39,412 bases of DNA. It comes from Opitutales bacterium (GTDB taxonomy: Bacteria > Verrucomicrobiota > Verrucomicrobiia > Opitutales > Oceanipulchritudinaceae). Shown here one piece after another: positions 17,987 through 25,280 of the stretch. The position numbers and the translations under genes are program-made. The notes below the pieces were generated by a model that was not told the origin of the DNA, made no database searches, and saw nothing but the letters and a program-made list of their open reading frames with translations. The DNA lies in NCBI GenBank assembly GCA_020831525.1, contig JAFIGH010000042.1, forward strand, positions 1-39,412. Direction: 5' to 3'. Position 1 is the stretch's first letter; every line of letters starts with the position of its first letter.

Positions 17987-18898
17987 TCAATGCAGAGACC
18001 GCCGTGAGCGTGCGAGAATGCCGTGACGGGGCGCGAACACAGCTGCGGCGGCAAAGAGAACGCCGGCGGTCACCGCCATCATGCCCGAGGTGGATACGGC
18101 CTCGTGCCCGGTGAGCGCCGGCAGGTAAACGGCGGCGGCGTGCCCTCCCGCCGCGCAGAGCACACCCATAACAACGCTGAGGACAACCATCATCCCGAGC
18201 CGGTCGGTGAGGAGGTGCGCCGTGGCGGGCGGCACAATGAGCATGGCGATGACGAGGATGCTGCCGACAGCTTCAAAGGCCGCCACCGTCGTAACCGCGA
18301 CCAGCGTCATGAGCAGGTAGTGCATGAAACCCGCGTGCACCCCGAGCGTTGTGGCGAGGGCCGGATCGAAGGCGCTGATGCGGAGTTCCTTAAAGAGCAG
18401 GACAATCACCGCCAAGTTCAGAAGGAAGACCGCGCCGAGGACGACAAAGGCGCGCGGTATCTCAAGCAGGACGCCGAAAACCGTCCAGTCCGCGACGACA
18501 TCAAGCGGCGTCAGTTCGATGGCACCGAAGAGCACACAGCCCGGGTCGAGTTCCACCTTCTCCGCACCCCGTGTGATGAGGAGCAGCCCGAGGGCGAAGA
18601 GGGTCGTGAAAACGATTCCCATGGACGCCCCGCGCTCGACGTTGCCGAGGCGGCTGACCCACTGCGTGAATACAGCCGTGAGCACGCCGGTGACCGCTGC
18701 CCCGACAAACATGGCGACGCTGGTGCGGCTGCCCGTGAGGAGAAAGGCCACGGCCAGCCCCGGCAAGACGGCGTGGCTGATGGCATCGCCCATCATGCTC
18801 ATACGGCGCAGGACGAGAAACGATCCCGCAAGCGCGCAGGCCGCCGCACACAAGGCACCCACCGCAACAATCCATGTATCAAAAACGTACCACTCCAT
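17987..18898 (-). CDS. Metal ABC transporter permease (ZnuB/MntB/YtgD type)
   Basis: A 303-residue inner-membrane permease of the ABC-3 family, with about eight to nine hydrophobic helices. Family marks are SFLVLRRMSMMGDAISHAVLPGLA near residues 26-48 (seen as LRRMSMMGDAISHAVLPG) and EAVGSILVIAMLIVPPATAHLLT (seen as ILVIAMLIVPPATA) in the second half. Together with the fused permease upstream and the ATPase it should form the channel of a Zn2+, Mn2+ or Fe2+ importer. Its start lies 4 bp after the stop of the fused permease, so the two are surely co-transcribed. The C-terminus carries no extra domain. The metal cannot be decided from the sequence. Confidence 0.9.
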   Translation of the reverse strand: MEWYVFDTWIVAVGALCAAACALAGSFLVLRRMSMMGDAISHAVLPGLAVAFLLTGSRTSVAMFVGAAVTGVLTAVFTQWVSRLGNVERGASMGIVFTTLFALGLLLITRGAEKVELDPGCVLFGAIELTPLDVVADWTVFGVLLEIPRAFVVLGAVFLLNLAVIVLLFKELRISAFDPALATTLGVHAGFMHYLLMTLVAVTTVAAFEAVGSILVIAMLIVPPATAHLLTDRLGMMVVLSVVMGVLCAAGGHAAAVYLPALTGHEAVSTSGMMAVTAGVLFAAAAVFAPRHGILARSRRSLH

Positions 18899-18902
18899 GA
18901 CG

Positions 18903-20318
18903 TCAACGGATCGGGTGCGGACTGGCGGGAACCCCGTCTGCGGCGGGACGCTCGGCGCGGGTTAGCGTCGCCTCAAGCCGCCGGATAAGGTCCGCACCGA
19001 GGATGTGTTCGACGGCGTCGGCATCGCGGTCGACGTGAGACGGTGCGATGTCGGCGTACTCCACGAGATAGATTTCCCAGAGGCGGTGGTTGCGGGTGAC
19101 GCGCGCCGCCTCCCGCGCGCCCGCATCGGTCAAACGCACCCCGGCGCGTCCCATTGTCTCGACAAGACCCCGCCGGTAGGCGCGCCGGACGATGCGCCGC
19201 AGCTCGCCGGGTGTCCACGAGCGCTTGCACTCCAGCGCCTCCCATGTGACCATGGACGTGCCCTCGCCTGCCATTTGCGGGGCTGGGCCGTCTTCCTCAA
19301 GCACTTCGTAGATTCCCCGCAGCAAGTGCTGCCGCTCAATCCGGCGCTTGAGCAGATGCGCACGCACCGTGCGCGCGACGATTCCACGGTCGGGACCGGC
19401 CAGCAGACTCATCACAAAAAGCGCCGCCGCTGTCAGCACGATCACCGCTCCGGCCGGAAGCCCCGGCGTAAGCGCGCTCAATCCCGATCCCAGCCACCCG
19501 CTCGCTCCGCCGAAACCCGCAGCAATCGCCAGCATCCAGCCGAACCGCGAAGTCCACATGCGCGCCGAGGCCGCGGGAATAATGAGGAAGGCGATGATCA
19601 AAACGACGCCGACGGCCTGCAATCCGACCACCGTCACAAGGGTGACGAGCAGGAGCATGAGCACATCGAGCGCGTGCGTGGGCCAGCCCATCGAGCGCGC
19701 GTAGTCCTCGTCGAAGCAGAGCAACCGGAACTCCTTGAAAAGTGCGAGCGAGGCGAAAAGCGCAACGACGGCGGCCCCGGAAACAAGATAAAAATCCGTC
19801 AGCACCATCGAAGCCGTCTTGCCGTAGAGAAAGGACTCGAGCCCCGCCGTGCCCGCCTCCGGCATGTGCTGCACGATACTCAGGAGGACCACACCCGCGC
19901 CGTAAAAGACGCTCAGCACGATTCCCATCGCGGCATCGTCCTTCACCCGCGTAAGCCCGCGTATCAACAGCACCACGACACAGCCGAGGATGCCCGTGAC
20001 CGCCGCGCCGGTGACGAGCACAGCGAATGAACGCCCCGCGCCCGTAAAATGCACGGCGACGATGAAGGCAAGCACGATACCCGGCAGCGTCGCGTGTGAG
20101 AGCGCGTCGCCCATGAGCGACCGCTTGCGCAGGAGAAGAAAACTCCCCGCCAGCCCACCGGCCACCCCGAGCAGGGCCGTCGAGATAATCACGAGACGGG
20201 TATTGTAGTCGCGGAGCAAGACAACGGAGGCGAAATCATCCCGCCATGAGCCCGCCGATGCTTCAGCCACGGCGGCGGCAAGAAAGAGTGCAAAGGCTGT
20301 CCCCCACCCCTTGTTCAT
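18903..20318 (-). CDS. Metal ABC permease fused to a DtxR/MntR-like repressor domain (YtgCR-like)
   Basis: A 471-residue protein. Residues 1-310 are an ABC-3 permease: a hydrophobic N-terminus, LRKRSLMGDALSHATLPG (64-81) and VVLIIAFLIIPAASARM (238-254). After the last helix (about 290-307) comes a cytoplasmic part: a winged-helix region (about 325-402) ending in RAGVRLTDAGAREA, then a DtxR-type dimerisation helix pair, NHRLWEIYLVEYADI (410-424) and DADAVEHILG (432-441). By eye, H411, D434, E437 and H438 match MntR H77, E99, E102 and H103, while MntR D8 and E11 fall on H331 and R334. The same fusion is known as chlamydial YtgCR, where the repressor part is released by proteolysis. Its start overlaps the ATPase stop (ATGA) and has a GAGG before it. 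Confidence 0.9.
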   Translation of the reverse strand: MNKGWGTAFALFLAAAVAEASAGSWRDDFASVVLLRDYNTRLVIISTALLGVAGGLAGSFLLLRKRSLMGDALSHATLPGIVLAFIVAVHFTGAGRSFAVLVTGAAVTGILGCVVVLLIRGLTRVKDDAAMGIVLSVFYGAGVVLLSIVQHMPEAGTAGLESFLYGKTASMVLTDFYLVSGAAVVALFASLALFKEFRLLCFDEDYARSMGWPTHALDVLMLLLVTLVTVVGLQAVGVVLIIAFLIIPAASARMWTSRFGWMLAIAAGFGGASGWLGSGLSALTPGLPAGAVIVLTAAALFVMSLLAGPDRGIVARTVRAHLLKRRIERQHLLRGIYEVLEEDGPAPQMAGEGTSMVTWEALECKRSWTPGELRRIVRRAYRRGLVETMGRAGVRLTDAGAREAARVTRNHRLWEIYLVEYADIAPSHVDRDADAVEHILGADLIRRLEATLTRAERPAADGVPASPHPIR

Positions 20319-21136
20319 TCCGCCTCACCCGCCTCCTTGGAAACCGCCGCGGCGGCCTCGCTGAGCAGCGTCAGCTTACCCCCGTAGGTCTTGCGCAGGT
20401 TCTCCGCCGTAAAGACCTCCGCCGTCGGCCCGCTCGCGACAACCCGCATGTTGAGCATCACCAGCCAATCAAAATACTCCTCCACGGTGGCAAGGTCGTG
20501 ATGCACGACGAGGCAGGTACGACCGCGCCGCTTCAATTCGTGCAAAATTCCGACAATCGCCCGCTCCGTCGCGGCGTCCACCGCCGCGAAGGGTTCGTCC
20601 ATGAAGTAGACCCGCGCGTCTTGCGCGAGCGCGCGCGCAAGAAACACCCGCTGCTGTTGGCCGCCCGAGAGCTGGCTGATCTGCCGCTGCGCGTAGTCCG
20701 CGAGCCCCACCTTCTCCAGCGCCTCCATGGCAAGCCCCTTGCAACGCCGGTTGACGGGACGCAGCCATCCCAACCGACCGTAGGTGCCCATCGCCACGAC
20801 ATCCAGCACACTCACCGGAAAATCCCAGTCCACGCTTTCGCGCTGCGGCACATAGCCGACCAGTTTGCGCTGCACGCGGTAGGGCTCGCCGAAGATCCGC
20901 ACCTCGCCGCTGCTGCGCGGCACCAGCTCAAGACACGCCTTGATCAGCGTGCTCTTGCCCGCGCCGTTGGGGCCCACGATGCCGACCAGCTTTCCCTCCG
21001 GAATCTCAAGGTCGATGTCCCAGATCACCGGCTTGCGGTGGTAAGCCACCGTCAGATCATGCACCGATAGCGGCGAGCGCGGCGAATGTTCCTCCGGCAA
21101 GCCGCCGCGCCCCGCGCCTTTCCGCCCGCTCTCCAT
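20315..21136 (-). CDS. Metal ABC transporter ATPase (ZnuC/MntA/YtgB type)
   Basis: The ATP-hydrolysing subunit of the importer encoded by the next two genes. All motifs are present: Walker A GPNGAGKST, Q-loop VPQRES, signature LSGGQQQRV, Walker B VYFMDEPFAAVD and switch histidine VHHDL. The start is uncertain: a GTG at 21187 and ATGs at 21166, 21154 and 21136 are in frame and the ABC domain starts only about 24 residues after the last. ATG 21136 is preferred because the palindrome at 21155-21172 would then lie just upstream of, rather than inside, the coding region. The stop overlaps the start of the fused permease by 4 bp. No substrate-binding protein gene is adjacent. Confidence 0.9.
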   Translation of the reverse strand: MESGRKGAGRGGLPEEHSPRSPLSVHDLTVAYHRKPVIWDIDLEIPEGKLVGIVGPNGAGKSTLIKACLELVPRSSGEVRIFGEPYRVQRKLVGYVPQRESVDWDFPVSVLDVVAMGTYGRLGWLRPVNRRCKGLAMEALEKVGLADYAQRQISQLSGGQQQRVFLARALAQDARVYFMDEPFAAVDAATERAIVGILHELKRRGRTCLVVHHDLATVEEYFDWLVMLNMRVVASGPTAEVFTAENLRKTYGGKLTLLSEAAAAVSKEAGEAE

Positions 21137-21154
21137 GGCCACAGCCCCGCGCAT

Positions 21155-21172
21155 ACTTTGACTCATCAAAGT
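21155..21172. promoter_or_regulatory. 18-bp palindrome before the metal ABC operon, candidate metalloregulator operator
   Basis: ACTTTGA and TCAAAGT are perfect 7-bp arms around CTCA. The site lies between the SulP gene and the most likely ATPase start, where a DtxR/MntR-type repressor would act. A looser copy of the half-sites, CTTTG-N5-CAAAG, lies at 21296-21310 inside the end of the SulP gene. Confidence 0.5.
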
Positions 21173-21243
21173 AAGAGCAGGACGCACCGCTCGGCAAAGT
21201 GCAAGCGAAAACCGTGAGGCGGGACACCCCGCGCGGCGGTCGT

Positions 21244-23142
21244 TCAGGTCCGGCCCGCGCCGTCATTCCCGCCCTTGTCCTCCGCCTTTTTCTTACTTTG
21301 GTCGACAAAGATACGGATGTCGGCCTCGCGCTGACCGAGCAGTTCCTGGGCACGTTTGAGGGCATTGCGTGTGGACAGGGTGGGATTACTCGGCTTTTCC
21401 ATGAAGAAGTTGTCGCGCCCGAGTTTGTCGAGAAGTCCAGAATTACGGAATACGCGATAGATCTCTTTGCGCGCTCCGGAGACGAGGAGGTGGCGGTCGT
21501 CAGCGCGCAGGACGTTGAGGAGTTCCTCAATGGCGAGGGCGCAGGTGGCGTCAAGGTGGCGCGCGTTCTTGAGGCGCAGGATGACGACACGCAACTGCGG
21601 ATCGAGCACAGCCTGCCGCGCCTGCTCAACGAAGATTTCCGTGGAGCCGAAGAAGAGGTCGCCCTCAGCGTGGAGAATGGAGATTCCGGGCAGCCGGCCG
21701 TGTCCTGCCTTCTCCAAAGCGGCGAGCTGGCCCTCCTGTGTGAAGCTGTATTCGACGAGATCCGGCACGCCCGCCTTGCGCAGGAAGAGAACGACCGATG
21801 TGAGGACACCGGCGTAGATCGCCATGTCGAGCGTGAAGAGCAGCCCGGCGGCGAGCGTGATGGTAAAGACCACGGCGTCCGCCGGCGTGGTGCGCAGGGC
21901 AACGGAGACCTGGTGCCGGTTGAAGAGCGAGAGAGCAACGACAAGCACCACGGCGGCGAGTGCCGCTTTCGGAATGTATCCGATGAGAAAACCAATCGTG
22001 AAAAGAAGTATGATGACGATACCGCCGCTCACGATGACGGACACGGCGGTGCGCGCGCCGCTGCGCCAGTTGAGGGCCGAACGTGTGATGGAACCGGAGG
22101 CGTCCATGCCGCCGAAGAGGCTGTTGGCAATGTTTGCCATGCCCATCCCGAACATCACCTGACTCACGTTGATGCGCTCGCCCGAGCGCGAGGCAAGGCT
22201 GCGCCCCACCGACGCGCCCTCGACGATCCCGAGAAAGGCCACGGCAAAGGCGGGGGCCGCCAGCTTGCCCATCATTTCAAAAGAAAAGGAGATGGAGAAC
22301 ACATCGATGGCTTCGAGGGAGAACCCCGTCAGGTAGCGCAGATCCCAGCCTGCCCGGTCGAGATAGAGAGCGGCGGTGCCCATGAGAATGAGTGTGACGG
22401 CGGCATCCGGCGCACGCGGAAAGAAGTAACGCACCGCCGCGATGACCGCCAGTGCCGCCGCGCCCATGACCACCTCGGGAAAGCGGGTCTGGTGGAGGTT
22501 TTCGAGCGTTCCGAGGAGAATGGCGAAGAACGTGGCACCCTCCCCGAGCCGGAATCCGAGGAGGTTCTGCACCTGATTCAAAACAATAAGGGCCGCCGCC
22601 GCTGTGATTGACGCCGTTACGACCGAACGCGAGACGTAGTTGAGAACGATGGAAAGATTCGCAACCGCCCCGACGATGTGGAAACAGCCGACCATGAAAA
22701 CGAAGAGCGGCAGCGCCACAATCCGCTCCTCCTCCGTGGTCAGAGCCGCCGCCATCATCCCGGCGAAAAGCAGAATGGCGGTGGAGTTTCCCGGTCCCAT
22801 GGCAACCAGGCGCGAGCCGGAAAAGGCCGCCGCCACCGCCGCCCCGAGGCCGACGCTGATCAGCCCGTGCTGCGGTTGAAGCCCGGCGATAAGGGCAAAC
22901 GCGATTGCCTGCGGAAAGGCGAGAAGCGCGAGATTGAAACCCGCCTTCAAATCGTCCGCCGCCTGGTCCCGCGTGTAGTGGCGCAGGATGTGCCACAGGG
23001 GAAAGAAATGCAGCCGGCGCGAGCGCACTGCCGCCCGCAACCTCTCCGCCGCCCGGTAAGCGAGACGCGAAAAACGGCGCATTCCGCGCTTCCTACGCGG
23101 GGCCGCCTTCACTTTGGATTGTCCCGAATCCGTCATTTTCAT
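21244..23142 (-). CDS. SulP-family anion transporter with STAS domain
   Basis: A 632-residue inner-membrane transporter for sulfate, bicarbonate or a related anion. The membrane part (about 60-430) has the SulP opening DLKAGFNLALLAFPQAIAFALIAGLQP (seen as LLAFPQAIAFALIAGLQPQHGL) and GTSR-like SGSRLVAMGPGNSTAIL, and the helix with NSLFGGMDASGSITRSALN. A cytoplasmic STAS domain (about 475-590, ISILHAEGDLFFGSTEIF to LLVSGARKEIYRVF) ends it. The anion is not readable. The frame runs further upstream, but the ATGs at 23140-23142 and 23134-23136 are the likely starts; further upstream it overlaps the divergent kinase gene. It ends 100 bp before the ATPase start on the same strand, so the metal importer may share its transcript. 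Confidence 0.88.
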   Translation of the reverse strand: MKMTDSGQSKVKAAPRRKRGMRRFSRLAYRAAERLRAAVRSRRLHFFPLWHILRHYTRDQAADDLKAGFNLALLAFPQAIAFALIAGLQPQHGLISVGLGAAVAAAFSGSRLVAMGPGNSTAILLFAGMMAAALTTEEERIVALPLFVFMVGCFHIVGAVANLSIVLNYVSRSVVTASITAAAALIVLNQVQNLLGFRLGEGATFFAILLGTLENLHQTRFPEVVMGAAALAVIAAVRYFFPRAPDAAVTLILMGTAALYLDRAGWDLRYLTGFSLEAIDVFSISFSFEMMGKLAAPAFAVAFLGIVEGASVGRSLASRSGERINVSQVMFGMGMANIANSLFGGMDASGSITRSALNWRSGARTAVSVIVSGGIVIILLFTIGFLIGYIPKAALAAVVLVVALSLFNRHQVSVALRTTPADAVVFTITLAAGLLFTLDMAIYAGVLTSVVLFLRKAGVPDLVEYSFTQEGQLAALEKAGHGRLPGISILHAEGDLFFGSTEIFVEQARQAVLDPQLRVVILRLKNARHLDATCALAIEELLNVLRADDRHLLVSGARKEIYRVFRNSGLLDKLGRDNFFMEKPSNPTLSTRNALKRAQELLGQREADIRIFVDQSKKKAEDKGGNDGAGRT

Positions 23143-23216
23143 CAGCTGGCAAACGGTGTCGCCTCTGCTCACCACGGATTCATCTGTAATAACGTCGCGT
23201 CTACACGCAAGTGCGG

Positions 23217-25280
23217 ATGAACCGGACTGCGGAACGACGAATGGTGACGTTGGAGTTGACGGAGCGGGGAAAGTGGAAACCCTCCGAAAACGTGAAAACC
23301 TCTGCGGCAAGCGCCGTCCCGGCTGTAGAAACTCCGTCGCCCATAACTGTGAAGAATTGGCTCGATGAGGCGCGGTCGCAGTTTCGCTCCGACATGGCCC
23401 GTAGCGCCAGCCTCATTGCCGATGCCGAGTCCGCCGCCCGCGCCGCCCTCGCAATGGCCGGTTACACTGGATTCACGCCGGAGACCGATTGGTCGCGGTT
23501 ACCGCGGGAATGGGTGGTCATGCTCGGCCGCGCCCTTCGCTCCCGCCTTTCCGTCCATGCCCTGCGCAGCGATCAAAACGAGGCAGCGGCGGCCCGTGCC
23601 GAAGCCGAGTCCGTCCTTCTCTACTTGAAGGACGACGCCGAACTCGGGGCCTTTTACAGCGCGCTGGGCATTCTCGCCTACGACCGTTCCGAATACGCTG
23701 AGAGTCTCCGGCAATACAGCACGGCCCTTCCCTACGCGAAGCGCCTTGCCGACGGATACCTAACGGCGACCATTCTCCAGAACGAGGGCAACGTGTGGTC
23801 GGAACTCGGAGAATACGCCCGCGCCATCGACGGCTACACGGAGGCGGCGAAAGCCGCGGAAAACTCAAAGGACGCCAGCGCCGGTCTCATCCGTGCCTCC
23901 ATCCTCATGAACCTCGCGGCGGTCTACCAAGATTACAAGCAACTGGAGACCGCGCGCGACTTTTTCTGCAAAGCCCTTACGGCATGCGATCTGAGCAACT
24001 TCCCGATCCTGCACAGCAAGATCGTCGCGGGCCTCGGCACGAACGAGAAACTCTGCGGCAACTATTCCGCCGCACGCCAACGGCTCAACGAAGCGTTGAG
24101 GCTCAAACGCCGCGGCGGCGACCGCGCCGGGGCGCCGTTTTGCGGCTTCCAGCTCGCCCTGTGCGCGCGCAAGTGCGGTGACTACACCGCGGCCGCTGAA
24201 TACCTCGACCACGCCGAAGCCGAGGCGCGGGAGATCGACCACAAGCGCTGGCTCACCCAGGTCCTCATCGAACGCGGCCGCCTCCTTGCTACTGAAGAAT
24301 GGAGTGGCCACGACCCCGCCGGGGCGCGCAAAGCCTATGAAGCCGCCATCGAATGCAGCCGGGCGATCAACTACCGAGACAGCGCCGCCCACGCCCACGA
24401 GGCCCTCGCCGACCTCCACGAAAAGTCGGGCAATCCCGCCGCCGCCCTGCAGGCACTGCGCGAGGCGAATGCACACCGGCTCGCCTTCCACGAAGCCGAG
24501 GCCGAGCGGAAGCTCGCCTCCCTCCGCGCCCTCCACGAGGTCGAGGCCGCCCGTGAAGAAACCGCCCGTGAACGCGCGCGCAACAGAAAACTGGAACACC
24601 TGCTCGAAGAAAAAGACGCCTTTCTCAGCATCGCCGCGCACGACCTCAAAAACCCGCTCAGCGCGCTCATTACGCTCGTGCGGTCGATGCAAGAAGAGCC
24701 CTCGCTGTCCGAAGAAACCGCCATCGGACTCCGCGAGATCGAGGGCAGCGTCTCCCACATGTTCGCCATCGTCAGCAACCTGCTCGACCTCAGTCGCTAT
24801 GAAAGCGGGGACGTGGCACCCGAACTCGCCGACTGCGAGCTTTCCTCCGTTCTTTACTTCGCCGCGGAAGCGCTCCTCCCCGTCGCGCAGAGGAAAAATA
24901 TCGAGGTTTCCTTTTCATTCCCCGCCGAGGACATACCCTACCGCGCCGACTTCACCATGCTGCGCCAGATTGTCGACAATCTCGTCTCCAACGCGCTAAA
25001 GTTCTCCCCTCCGGAGACCACCGTGCAAGTCAGCCTTTCGCAGCACGGCAACAGTTGGCGCTTCGCCGTGAACGACGAAGGTCCCGGCATCGACGCGGCG
25101 GAGCAACAAAAGCTCTTCAAACGATTCAGCCGCACGACAAACCGCCCGACCGCCGGAGAGCACAGCAGCGGTCTCGGCCTCGCCATTGTCAAACGCCTCG
25201 CCGACCTGCACGGAGCCTCCGTCGGCGTACGCAGCACGCCCGGCAAGGGCAGCGTGTTTTTCGTCGATTTCCCGCGGTAG
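23217..25280 (+). CDS. Soluble TPR sensor histidine kinase
   Basis: About 687 residues without any membrane segment. The first 400 residues are TPR-like helical repeats (for example GAFYSALGILAYDRSEYAESLRQYS, in short ALGILAYDRSEYAESL, and NEGNVWSELGEYARAIDGY), then a coiled coil (about 420-465), then a HisKA domain with FLSIAAHDLKNPLSAL (phospho-acceptor H475) and an HATPase domain with QIVDNLVSNALKFS, VNDEGPGID and SSGLGLAIVKRL. It should autophosphorylate and pass phosphate to a response regulator, but none is encoded nearby. The input is probably a protein or peptide bound by the TPRs. Starts at GTG 23211, ATG 23217 or ATG 23241 are possible. The following LysE-type gene begins 6 bp after the stop. 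Confidence 0.88.
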   Translation: MNRTAERRMVTLELTERGKWKPSENVKTSAASAVPAVETPSPITVKNWLDEARSQFRSDMARSASLIADAESAARAALAMAGYTGFTPETDWSRLPREWVVMLGRALRSRLSVHALRSDQNEAAAARAEAESVLLYLKDDAELGAFYSALGILAYDRSEYAESLRQYSTALPYAKRLADGYLTATILQNEGNVWSELGEYARAIDGYTEAAKAAENSKDASAGLIRASILMNLAAVYQDYKQLETARDFFCKALTACDLSNFPILHSKIVAGLGTNEKLCGNYSAARQRLNEALRLKRRGGDRAGAPFCGFQLALCARKCGDYTAAAEYLDHAEAEAREIDHKRWLTQVLIERGRLLATEEWSGHDPAGARKAYEAAIECSRAINYRDSAAHAHEALADLHEKSGNPAAALQALREANAHRLAFHEAEAERKLASLRALHEVEAAREETARERARNRKLEHLLEEKDAFLSIAAHDLKNPLSALITLVRSMQEEPSLSEETAIGLREIEGSVSHMFAIVSNLLDLSRYESGDVAPELADCELSSVLYFAAEALLPVAQRKNIEVSFSFPAEDIPYRADFTMLRQIVDNLVSNALKFSPPETTVQVSLSQHGNSWRFAVNDEGPGIDAAEQQKLFKRFSRTTNRPTAGEHSSGLGLAIVKRLADLHGASVGVRSTPGKGSVFFVDFPR

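Follow-up and report, generated by a model that had tools for sequence, protein, structure and literature searches.

Three genes of a metal importer lie on the minus strand of the window, i.e., the whole 39,412-nucleotide stretch of Opitutales bacterium DNA that was analysed (assembly GCA_020831525.1), in the order ATPase, fused permease and permease (Table 1). A pair of ABC-3 permeases with a matching ATPase, identified by Pfam and structure, is the arrangement of Mn/Fe (Psa/Mnt/Tro-type) ABC importers; the three operon genes code for these subunits of one such importer, of the manganese (or iron) type. The fused gene is a single frame with an ATG start and no internal stops. By inspection, the ATPase gene likely starts at the ATG at 21166 or at 21154, within or just past a perfect 7-4-7 palindrome (ACTTTGA-ctca-TCAAAGT on the plus strand), which is the only match to this motif in the window at up to two mismatches (0.04 expected). 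Another frame on this strand (21244-23310) resembles by inspection a SulP-type anion transporter; its end lies 56 nt ahead of the longest ATPase frame. No Rfam match above the gathering score was obtained in the window.

Table 1. Features of the importer operon, and loci in which both permeases carry a tail
Feature	Position or loci	Strand	Basis
Fused gene, metal ABC permease with DtxR-fold tail, 471 aa	18903..20318	-	ORF, profile scan, model
Permease domain ABC-3, residues 41-306	19401..20198	-	Pfam, structure match to PsaBC Mn importer 7kyp
Single helix, residues 313-342, from membrane part to HTH helix 1	19293..19382	-	model
Winged helix-turn-helix head, residues 357-397; reading helix 370-382	19128..19250	-	model, alignments
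Metal-binding/dimerisation half, residues 398-454	18957..19127	-	Pfam, alignments
ATPase gene, first in operon; longest frame	20315..21187	-	ORF, Pfam
Second permease, without tail	17987..18898	-	ORF, Pfam
Palindrome C1, ACTTTGA-N4-TCAAAGT, operator-like, operon start	21155..21172	.	motif scan
CTTGC element, 33 nt before palindrome	21201..21205	-	upstream comparison
Planctomycete loci, both permeases tailed	L070, L072, L075, L077, L078, L081, L084, L111		
Further planctomycete loci, both permeases tailed	L116, L117, L128, L131, L133, L136, L138		
Non-planctomycete loci, both permeases tailed	L080, L046		

The original prediction had described a permease joined in one frame to a DtxR/MntR-like domain, and both the frame and the fold of the tail were confirmed. 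An independently assembled congener (L052, genome G002) carries the same fusion (472 aa; 93% identity in the permease, 87% in the tail), and an assembly frameshift joining two genes was therefore ruled out. The Pfam families ABC-3 (residues 41-306, E 3e-57) and Fe_dep_repr_C (residues 397-454, E 9e-14, 51.7 bits with the cut-off at 27) both matched. Of the two repressor families expected in the tail only the latter was recovered, as no match to the N-terminal HTH family Fe_dep_repress was listed at E ≤10 in a scan whose filters drop most weak matches. Searches with the tail sequence hit the DtxR-family chains 8pvt (DR2539, E 2.8e-9), IdeR and ScaR. An AlphaFold2 model of the fused protein, with 45 relatives as input, reached a mean pLDDT of 90 and a pTM of 0.84, and the permease part superimposed best on the PsaBC Mn importer 7kyp (2.7 Å, 284 aligned columns, 32% identity). 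The tail, modelled separately (pLDDT 80), matched DtxR with Z 14.4 (2.3 Å over 128 residues, DtxR residues 3-130 only) and Bacillus subtilis MntR with Z 14.3. Helices 359-365 and 370-382 together with the wing strands 386-388 and 394-396 form a visible HTH, so that the tail is predicted to have the winged-helix fold of DtxR/MntR transcriptional repressors. Helix 313-342 continues without a break from the edge of the membrane into the first helix of the winged-helix head, with 10-residue pLDDT means of 94-95 up to residue 340; the junction is thus predicted to be a rigid helix and not a loose linker. Residues 313-471 have a mass of 18.0 kDa, compared with the released fragment of about 16 kDa that had been guessed.

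Judged by sequence, the tail has a metal-binding/dimerisation domain with ligands, as have DtxR/MntR repressors. H411, E415, D430, D434, E437 and H438 in the metal half, together with H331 in helix 1, make up a full potential ligand set, and these seven candidates did not vary among 11 sequences of the window's type from the order, one of them the window's own. In DtxR/MntR numbering, H411, E415, E437 and H438 are as in DtxR, whereas D replaces H98, D replaces C102/E99, and H331 replaces M10/D8. The EH pair, on which the loci had not been selected, was kept in nearly all tails (E in 96 of 97, H in 94 of 97).

A binding-protein gene, which most relatives have ahead of the ATPase gene, is absent from the operon. 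The predicted correspondence to the order ytgB-ytgCR-ytgD accordingly extends to the ATPase, the fused permease and the permease, but the binding-protein gene is unlinked. The original prediction had mentioned neither this missing gene nor the palindrome nor a standalone DtxR. Two such genes occur elsewhere in the window's genome, and the copy on contig C42 (L058, 4909-5925) is of the operon type, shares 55-60% identity with the copies found within the operon in ten closer relatives and most likely encodes the importer's binding protein. It has the same C1 box with two mismatches. In three congeners, operon and unlinked binding-protein gene both have the box (0-3 mismatches, three of them to the perfect palindrome at the binding-protein gene of G001) and, 31-33 nt ahead of the box, a CTTGC element; separation of the binding-protein gene with retention of promoter pattern and palindrome was seen in the window's genus, also in G001 and G002. 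A separate standalone DtxR of 254 aa is encoded on contig C130 of the window's genome; the best C1 match near the start of its gene had five mismatches and the best inside the gene four. On contig C31 of this genome, a C1-like box with two mismatches (L177, ~1501) overlaps the frame start of a TonB-dependent receptor, and C1 or C2 boxes (see below) precede TonB receptors in several relatives, so that the regulon may include an outer-membrane receptor.

The fusion was present in 19 of 20 stretches from relatives within the order, in two types. A scan of genomes for the motif HRLWE-x-YL yielded at least 80 loci, and among the 80 matches listed 76 were in-frame fusions, two were truncated at the locus edge (L063, L119), one was a standalone protein (L103) and one a chance frame (L099). 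The W of HRLWE was ruled out as a mark unique to fused domains by a standalone Bacteroidota DtxR with HRLWEVFL, and the longer motif is the better marker in the sequences compared. Among the matches listed, the fusions fell into 10 named phyla, with phylum labels as deposited and many genomes binned: at least 23 were from Planctomycetota, at least 23 from Bacteroidota, at least 16 from Verrucomicrobiota and at least seven from Chlamydiota, with one each from Spirochaetota, Omnitrophota, Bdellovibrionota, Sumerlaeota, Balneolota and Kiritimatiellota and one without phylum. A review, as far as its available excerpts go, reports orthologous permease-repressor fusions in 11 phyla, citing Thompson et al. 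2012 (PMC5599777). The fusion as a kind is therefore not confined to PVC bacteria, in contrast to the PVC trait that had been proposed, and is already in print; the window protein is very probably one more member of this reported family. Its function has so far been read from one intracellular pathogen, and in the open-access literature we found no paper that deals with the fused domain outside Chlamydia or assigns it a role in gating transport. In a tree of the fused proteins (quick method, midpoint root), Chlamydiota together with L139 stood apart from all others (100*), and Bacteroidota formed one group (support 74). L139 is labelled Verrucomicrobiota, but its fused protein groups with those of putative Chlamydiaceae (95*) and its genome has the chlamydial pattern of one DtxR match; it is probably mislabelled or mis-binned.

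In several lineages the second permease is tailed as well. This applied to all 15 planctomycete loci in which the second permease is full-length and unbroken (frames of at least 270 aa; L125, whose second permease is in two frames with no tail found, was left out), to one Omnitrophota locus and to L046 from the window's family, and to none of 57 others. These second tails had not been selected by motif, and 16 of the 17 contain HRLWE, with HRLYE in L080. Judged by frame length, both permeases may also be tailed in the Spirochaetota genome G063 (C134).

At the operon starts two palindromes, C1 (near ACTTTGA-N4-TCAAAGT) and C2 (TGTAGC-N4-GCTACA), were compared with standalone DtxR proteins of class 1 (long) and class 2 (short), assigned by eye in 55 genomes of the order (29 and 14, respectively; G045 has a TAG within its class 2 frame). 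C1 occurred with up to two mismatches at 17 of 61 operon starts (L115 left out), and permuted-arm controls averaged 0.16 with a maximum of 5; C2 occurred with up to one mismatch at seven, with a control average of 0.085 and a maximum of 7, which equals the observed value and perhaps represents the real arm redrawn. Neither box was present at these cut-offs at the remaining 37 starts. Where box and class were both known, all 22 rows, which are only those with a recognisable box, were concordant (class 1 with C1 in 16, class 2 with C2 in six). The independent starred tree pairs agreed on box and class in three of three cases, too few for significance.

Several observations separate the boxes from the fused proteins. 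Close relatives among the fused proteins have opposite boxes (C2 in L048, C1 in L047 and L082; branch 99*), and in genome G008, which has both DtxR classes, each lies next to its own box. C2 was found in 10 of the 55 order genomes, all among the 14 with a class 2 DtxR (p 3e-8), and five of these ten have no fused-size frame (G007, G012, G014, G019, G050); the box precedes an Nramp gene in G050 and a TonB receptor gene in G019. Six of nine genes checked beside C2 encode Nramp, TonB receptors or DtxR-FeoA proteins, and the other three are without evident metal role (MutS, phosphoglucomutase, GH97), as are six of 11 genes checked beside C1. C1 was present in 21 of 29 class 1 genomes and in six of 26 others, with eight class 1 genomes lacking an exact C1, and its link to class 1 appears looser at the whole-genome level. 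As C2 occurs in genomes that show no fused-size frame, G008 has a double set, and L048 differs from L047 and L082, the boxes seem to follow the standalone regulators. Where palindrome and standalone DtxR/MntR were both readable, the type of palindrome at the start of the importer transcription units was found to correspond to the standalone protein of the genome. A standalone DtxR gene adjoins the operon in 24 of the 46 cases with 900 nt or more of upstream sequence.

At other loci whose standalone class is known or whose standalone gene is adjacent, no close box lay between -200 and +60. This was the case for L046, L053, L060, L069 and L097, and for L054 (perfect C1 at -662), L051 (C2 before a leading 248-aa gene), L114 (best C1, four mismatches), L116 (best C2, four) and L108 (best C2, two). 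Neither box was found in this interval at Bacteroidota loci with a known or adjacent standalone class, and the chlamydial operon starts L071, L074, L112 and L139 had no C1 or C2 (at least three mismatches).

Tails and standalone proteins also differed in what they conserve. In 28 of the 31 loci that have both (without L069, L097 and L115, a near-copy; the standalone gene lies ~4 kb beyond the operon in L051 and just downstream in L117), the mean pairwise identity over the 13 columns of the reading region was 0.18, 0.39 and 0.28 in tails of class 1, class 2 and Bacteroidota loci, compared with 0.75, 0.62 and 0.57 in the standalone proteins, the values for variable heads being lowered because such heads are harder to align. 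In 113 of 118 pairs, conservation was higher in the standalone region. Identity in the metal half was 0.55, 0.68 and 0.71 in tails and 0.70, 0.60 and 0.76 in standalone proteins, with the class 1 tail value lowered because the L109 tail is truncated by the end of the locus. Across 11 sequences of the window's type, identity was 0.34 in the head and 0.71 in the metal half (this set contains L082, and the ligand set above contains L052 in its place). The conserved reading helix of DtxR/MntR repressors thus appears to be missing from the fused tail. Basic charge is present, with a net charge of +5 over residues 369-383 in the window and a mean of +3.1 for the reading helix of the window's type, compared with +0.55 in standalone DtxR proteins.

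The studied example of the fusion is, as had been stated, YtgCR, and YtgR of Chlamydia trachomatis is cleaved and represses (PMC5599777, PMC6504234 and PMC7755916, as excerpted). The cleaved fragment is reported as 28 kDa in Chlamydia in the available part of PMC5599777, and such a piece would include membrane helices; the repressor construct comprised the C-terminal 139 residues, with an estimated ~16 kDa (PMC5599777, PMC6504234, both in excerpt). Among 92 sampled Chlamydiota genomes, 82 had an Fe_dep_repr_C match, each with one in a fused-size frame; in these and in the locus genomes, fusion was judged by a frame length of 393-474 aa (G154, with 313 aa, is putative). Nine had a short standalone match in addition, and in 73 of the 92 the single fused-size match was the sole DtxR-family match, unlike in the window's genome with its standalone protein on C130. 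Likewise, the eight chlamydial or chlamydia-like genomes of the loci had one DtxR match each, of fused size, whereas 10 of 10 other genomes of the loci also had matches in shorter frames. In 15 sequences taken for Chlamydiaceae (genomes of 1.0-1.3 Mb), identity was 0.66 in the head, not far below the 0.76 of the metal half and the 0.72 of the permease. The head of these putative Chlamydiaceae (DFVxSxKYQEYFG...) has a sequence of its own, so that the published YtgR repressor rests on a head absent from the window protein. No conserved head was seen in seven other, environmental Chlamydiota (head 0.18, metal half 0.69), which have no other DtxR match, and their variable heads are explained well neither by a repressor nor by a sensor. 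In two Chlamydiota loci, L071 and L095, the alignment showed the winged-helix head to be shortened around helix 2 with the metal half intact, which appears hard to square with DNA binding.

Taken together, we suggest, at roughly even chances, that the tail resides on the transporter as a metal sensor and provides feedback control, with the standalone DtxR on C130 as the repressor. The standalone protein would repress the importer genes and the tail would sense metal on the cytosolic side of the transporter. Once cytosolic metal is sufficient, it would bind the tail, which would dimerise, between two transporters here and within one where both permeases are tailed, or alternatively move its cationic helix against the membrane or the ATPase. 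Import would be slowed by feedback (trans-)inhibition as in MetNI and ModABC or by gating as in OpuA, with a re-used repressor fold. An action on transport is suggested by the conservation, connection and number of the tails and by analogy with fused feedback domains in ABC importers; two tails per transporter would fit a pairing of the domains beneath it. The standalone DtxR genes beside many of the operons also speak for this division of roles.

In a YtgCR-like reading, to which the original prediction leans, the tail would repress its own operon at high metal, cut off or tethered, alone or together with a standalone DtxR. Fusion and gene order are the same, HTH fold and ligands are kept, and the chlamydial protein sets a precedent. 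However, the reading helix is unconserved where standalone ones are conserved, the operator type tracks the standalone class where readable, a standalone DtxR is present, and the connecting helix is predicted to be rigid. Head conservation in putative Chlamydiaceae is not simply transferable to the window protein, because the head sequence differs, and self-repression appears unlikely in this lineage. Some DNA binding by the tail is possible, since it retains the HTH fold and a basic reading helix, and the variable heads might reflect a private operator for each tail. MalK-MalT and PtsG-Mlc, in which a transporter holds a regulator and its state sets the regulator's activity, offer an analogy for a tail that would hetero-dimerise with the standalone DtxR/MntR and hold it at the membrane. 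The retained dimerisation half, a reading helix free to drift and a standalone DtxR gene beside 24 of 46 operons (see above) are consistent with this, but Chlamydiota keep tails although most have no other DtxR-family match, and close relatives of the fused protein pair with two different standalone classes, which makes it a distant prospect. Only a little more probable is a tail that serves as metal store or chaperone, or as a structural remnant without regulatory action. This would fit the lack of an SH3-like domain; a remnant would decay, yet the EH pair is kept, and planctomycetes keep the tail on both permeases.

A broader reading, in which we place limited confidence, is that across some ten phyla the DtxR fold is a built-in metal gate of Mn/Fe importers. 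The fused copy would have lost DNA reading, or never have used it, and the operators would have stayed with the standalone proteins; YtgR would be a late re-recruitment to DNA in a lineage mostly without standalone regulator, and not ancestral. The chlamydial repressor may thus be a derived case. If the tail were a gate in most lineages, metal ABC importers would have a new way to sense their cargo and a repressor fold would do allosteric work at the membrane, with Chlamydia as the exception.

Compared with known systems, the window protein shares with YtgCR (CT069/CTL0325) of C. trachomatis an ABC-3 permease that continues in frame into a DtxR-fold tail with the metal ligands kept, and the order ATPase, fused permease, permease. 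It differs from that system in the unlinked binding-protein gene, the standalone DtxR and the head, which is unlike that of putative Chlamydiaceae. The review of fusions in 11 phyla suggests, in its available part, that the YtgR mechanism may be general (PMC5599777); our comparison argues against this for the window's lineage. Standalone DtxR, MntR and IdeR have the fold, the dimerisation and the metal half in common with the tail, which is fixed to a permease and has no conserved reading helix. Full-length DtxR has a C-terminal SH3-like domain, whereas the tail has none and aligns to DtxR residues 3-130 only. The permease fold resembles that of PsaBC-type Mn importers (7kyp), and PsaC is not known to have such a tail. 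In ModABC the feedback domain is on the ATPase subunit, and we know of no DtxR fold among the feedback domains of MetNI, ModABC and OpuA. The excerpts of PMC10710835 describe feedback (trans-)inhibition for MetNI and ModABC and gating via fused domains for OpuA, which has a membrane-near, positively charged HTH, with the MetNI and OpuA domains on the ATPase subunit. The likeness to these importers would lie in the proposed working, a cytosolic domain that slows import, and not in membership.
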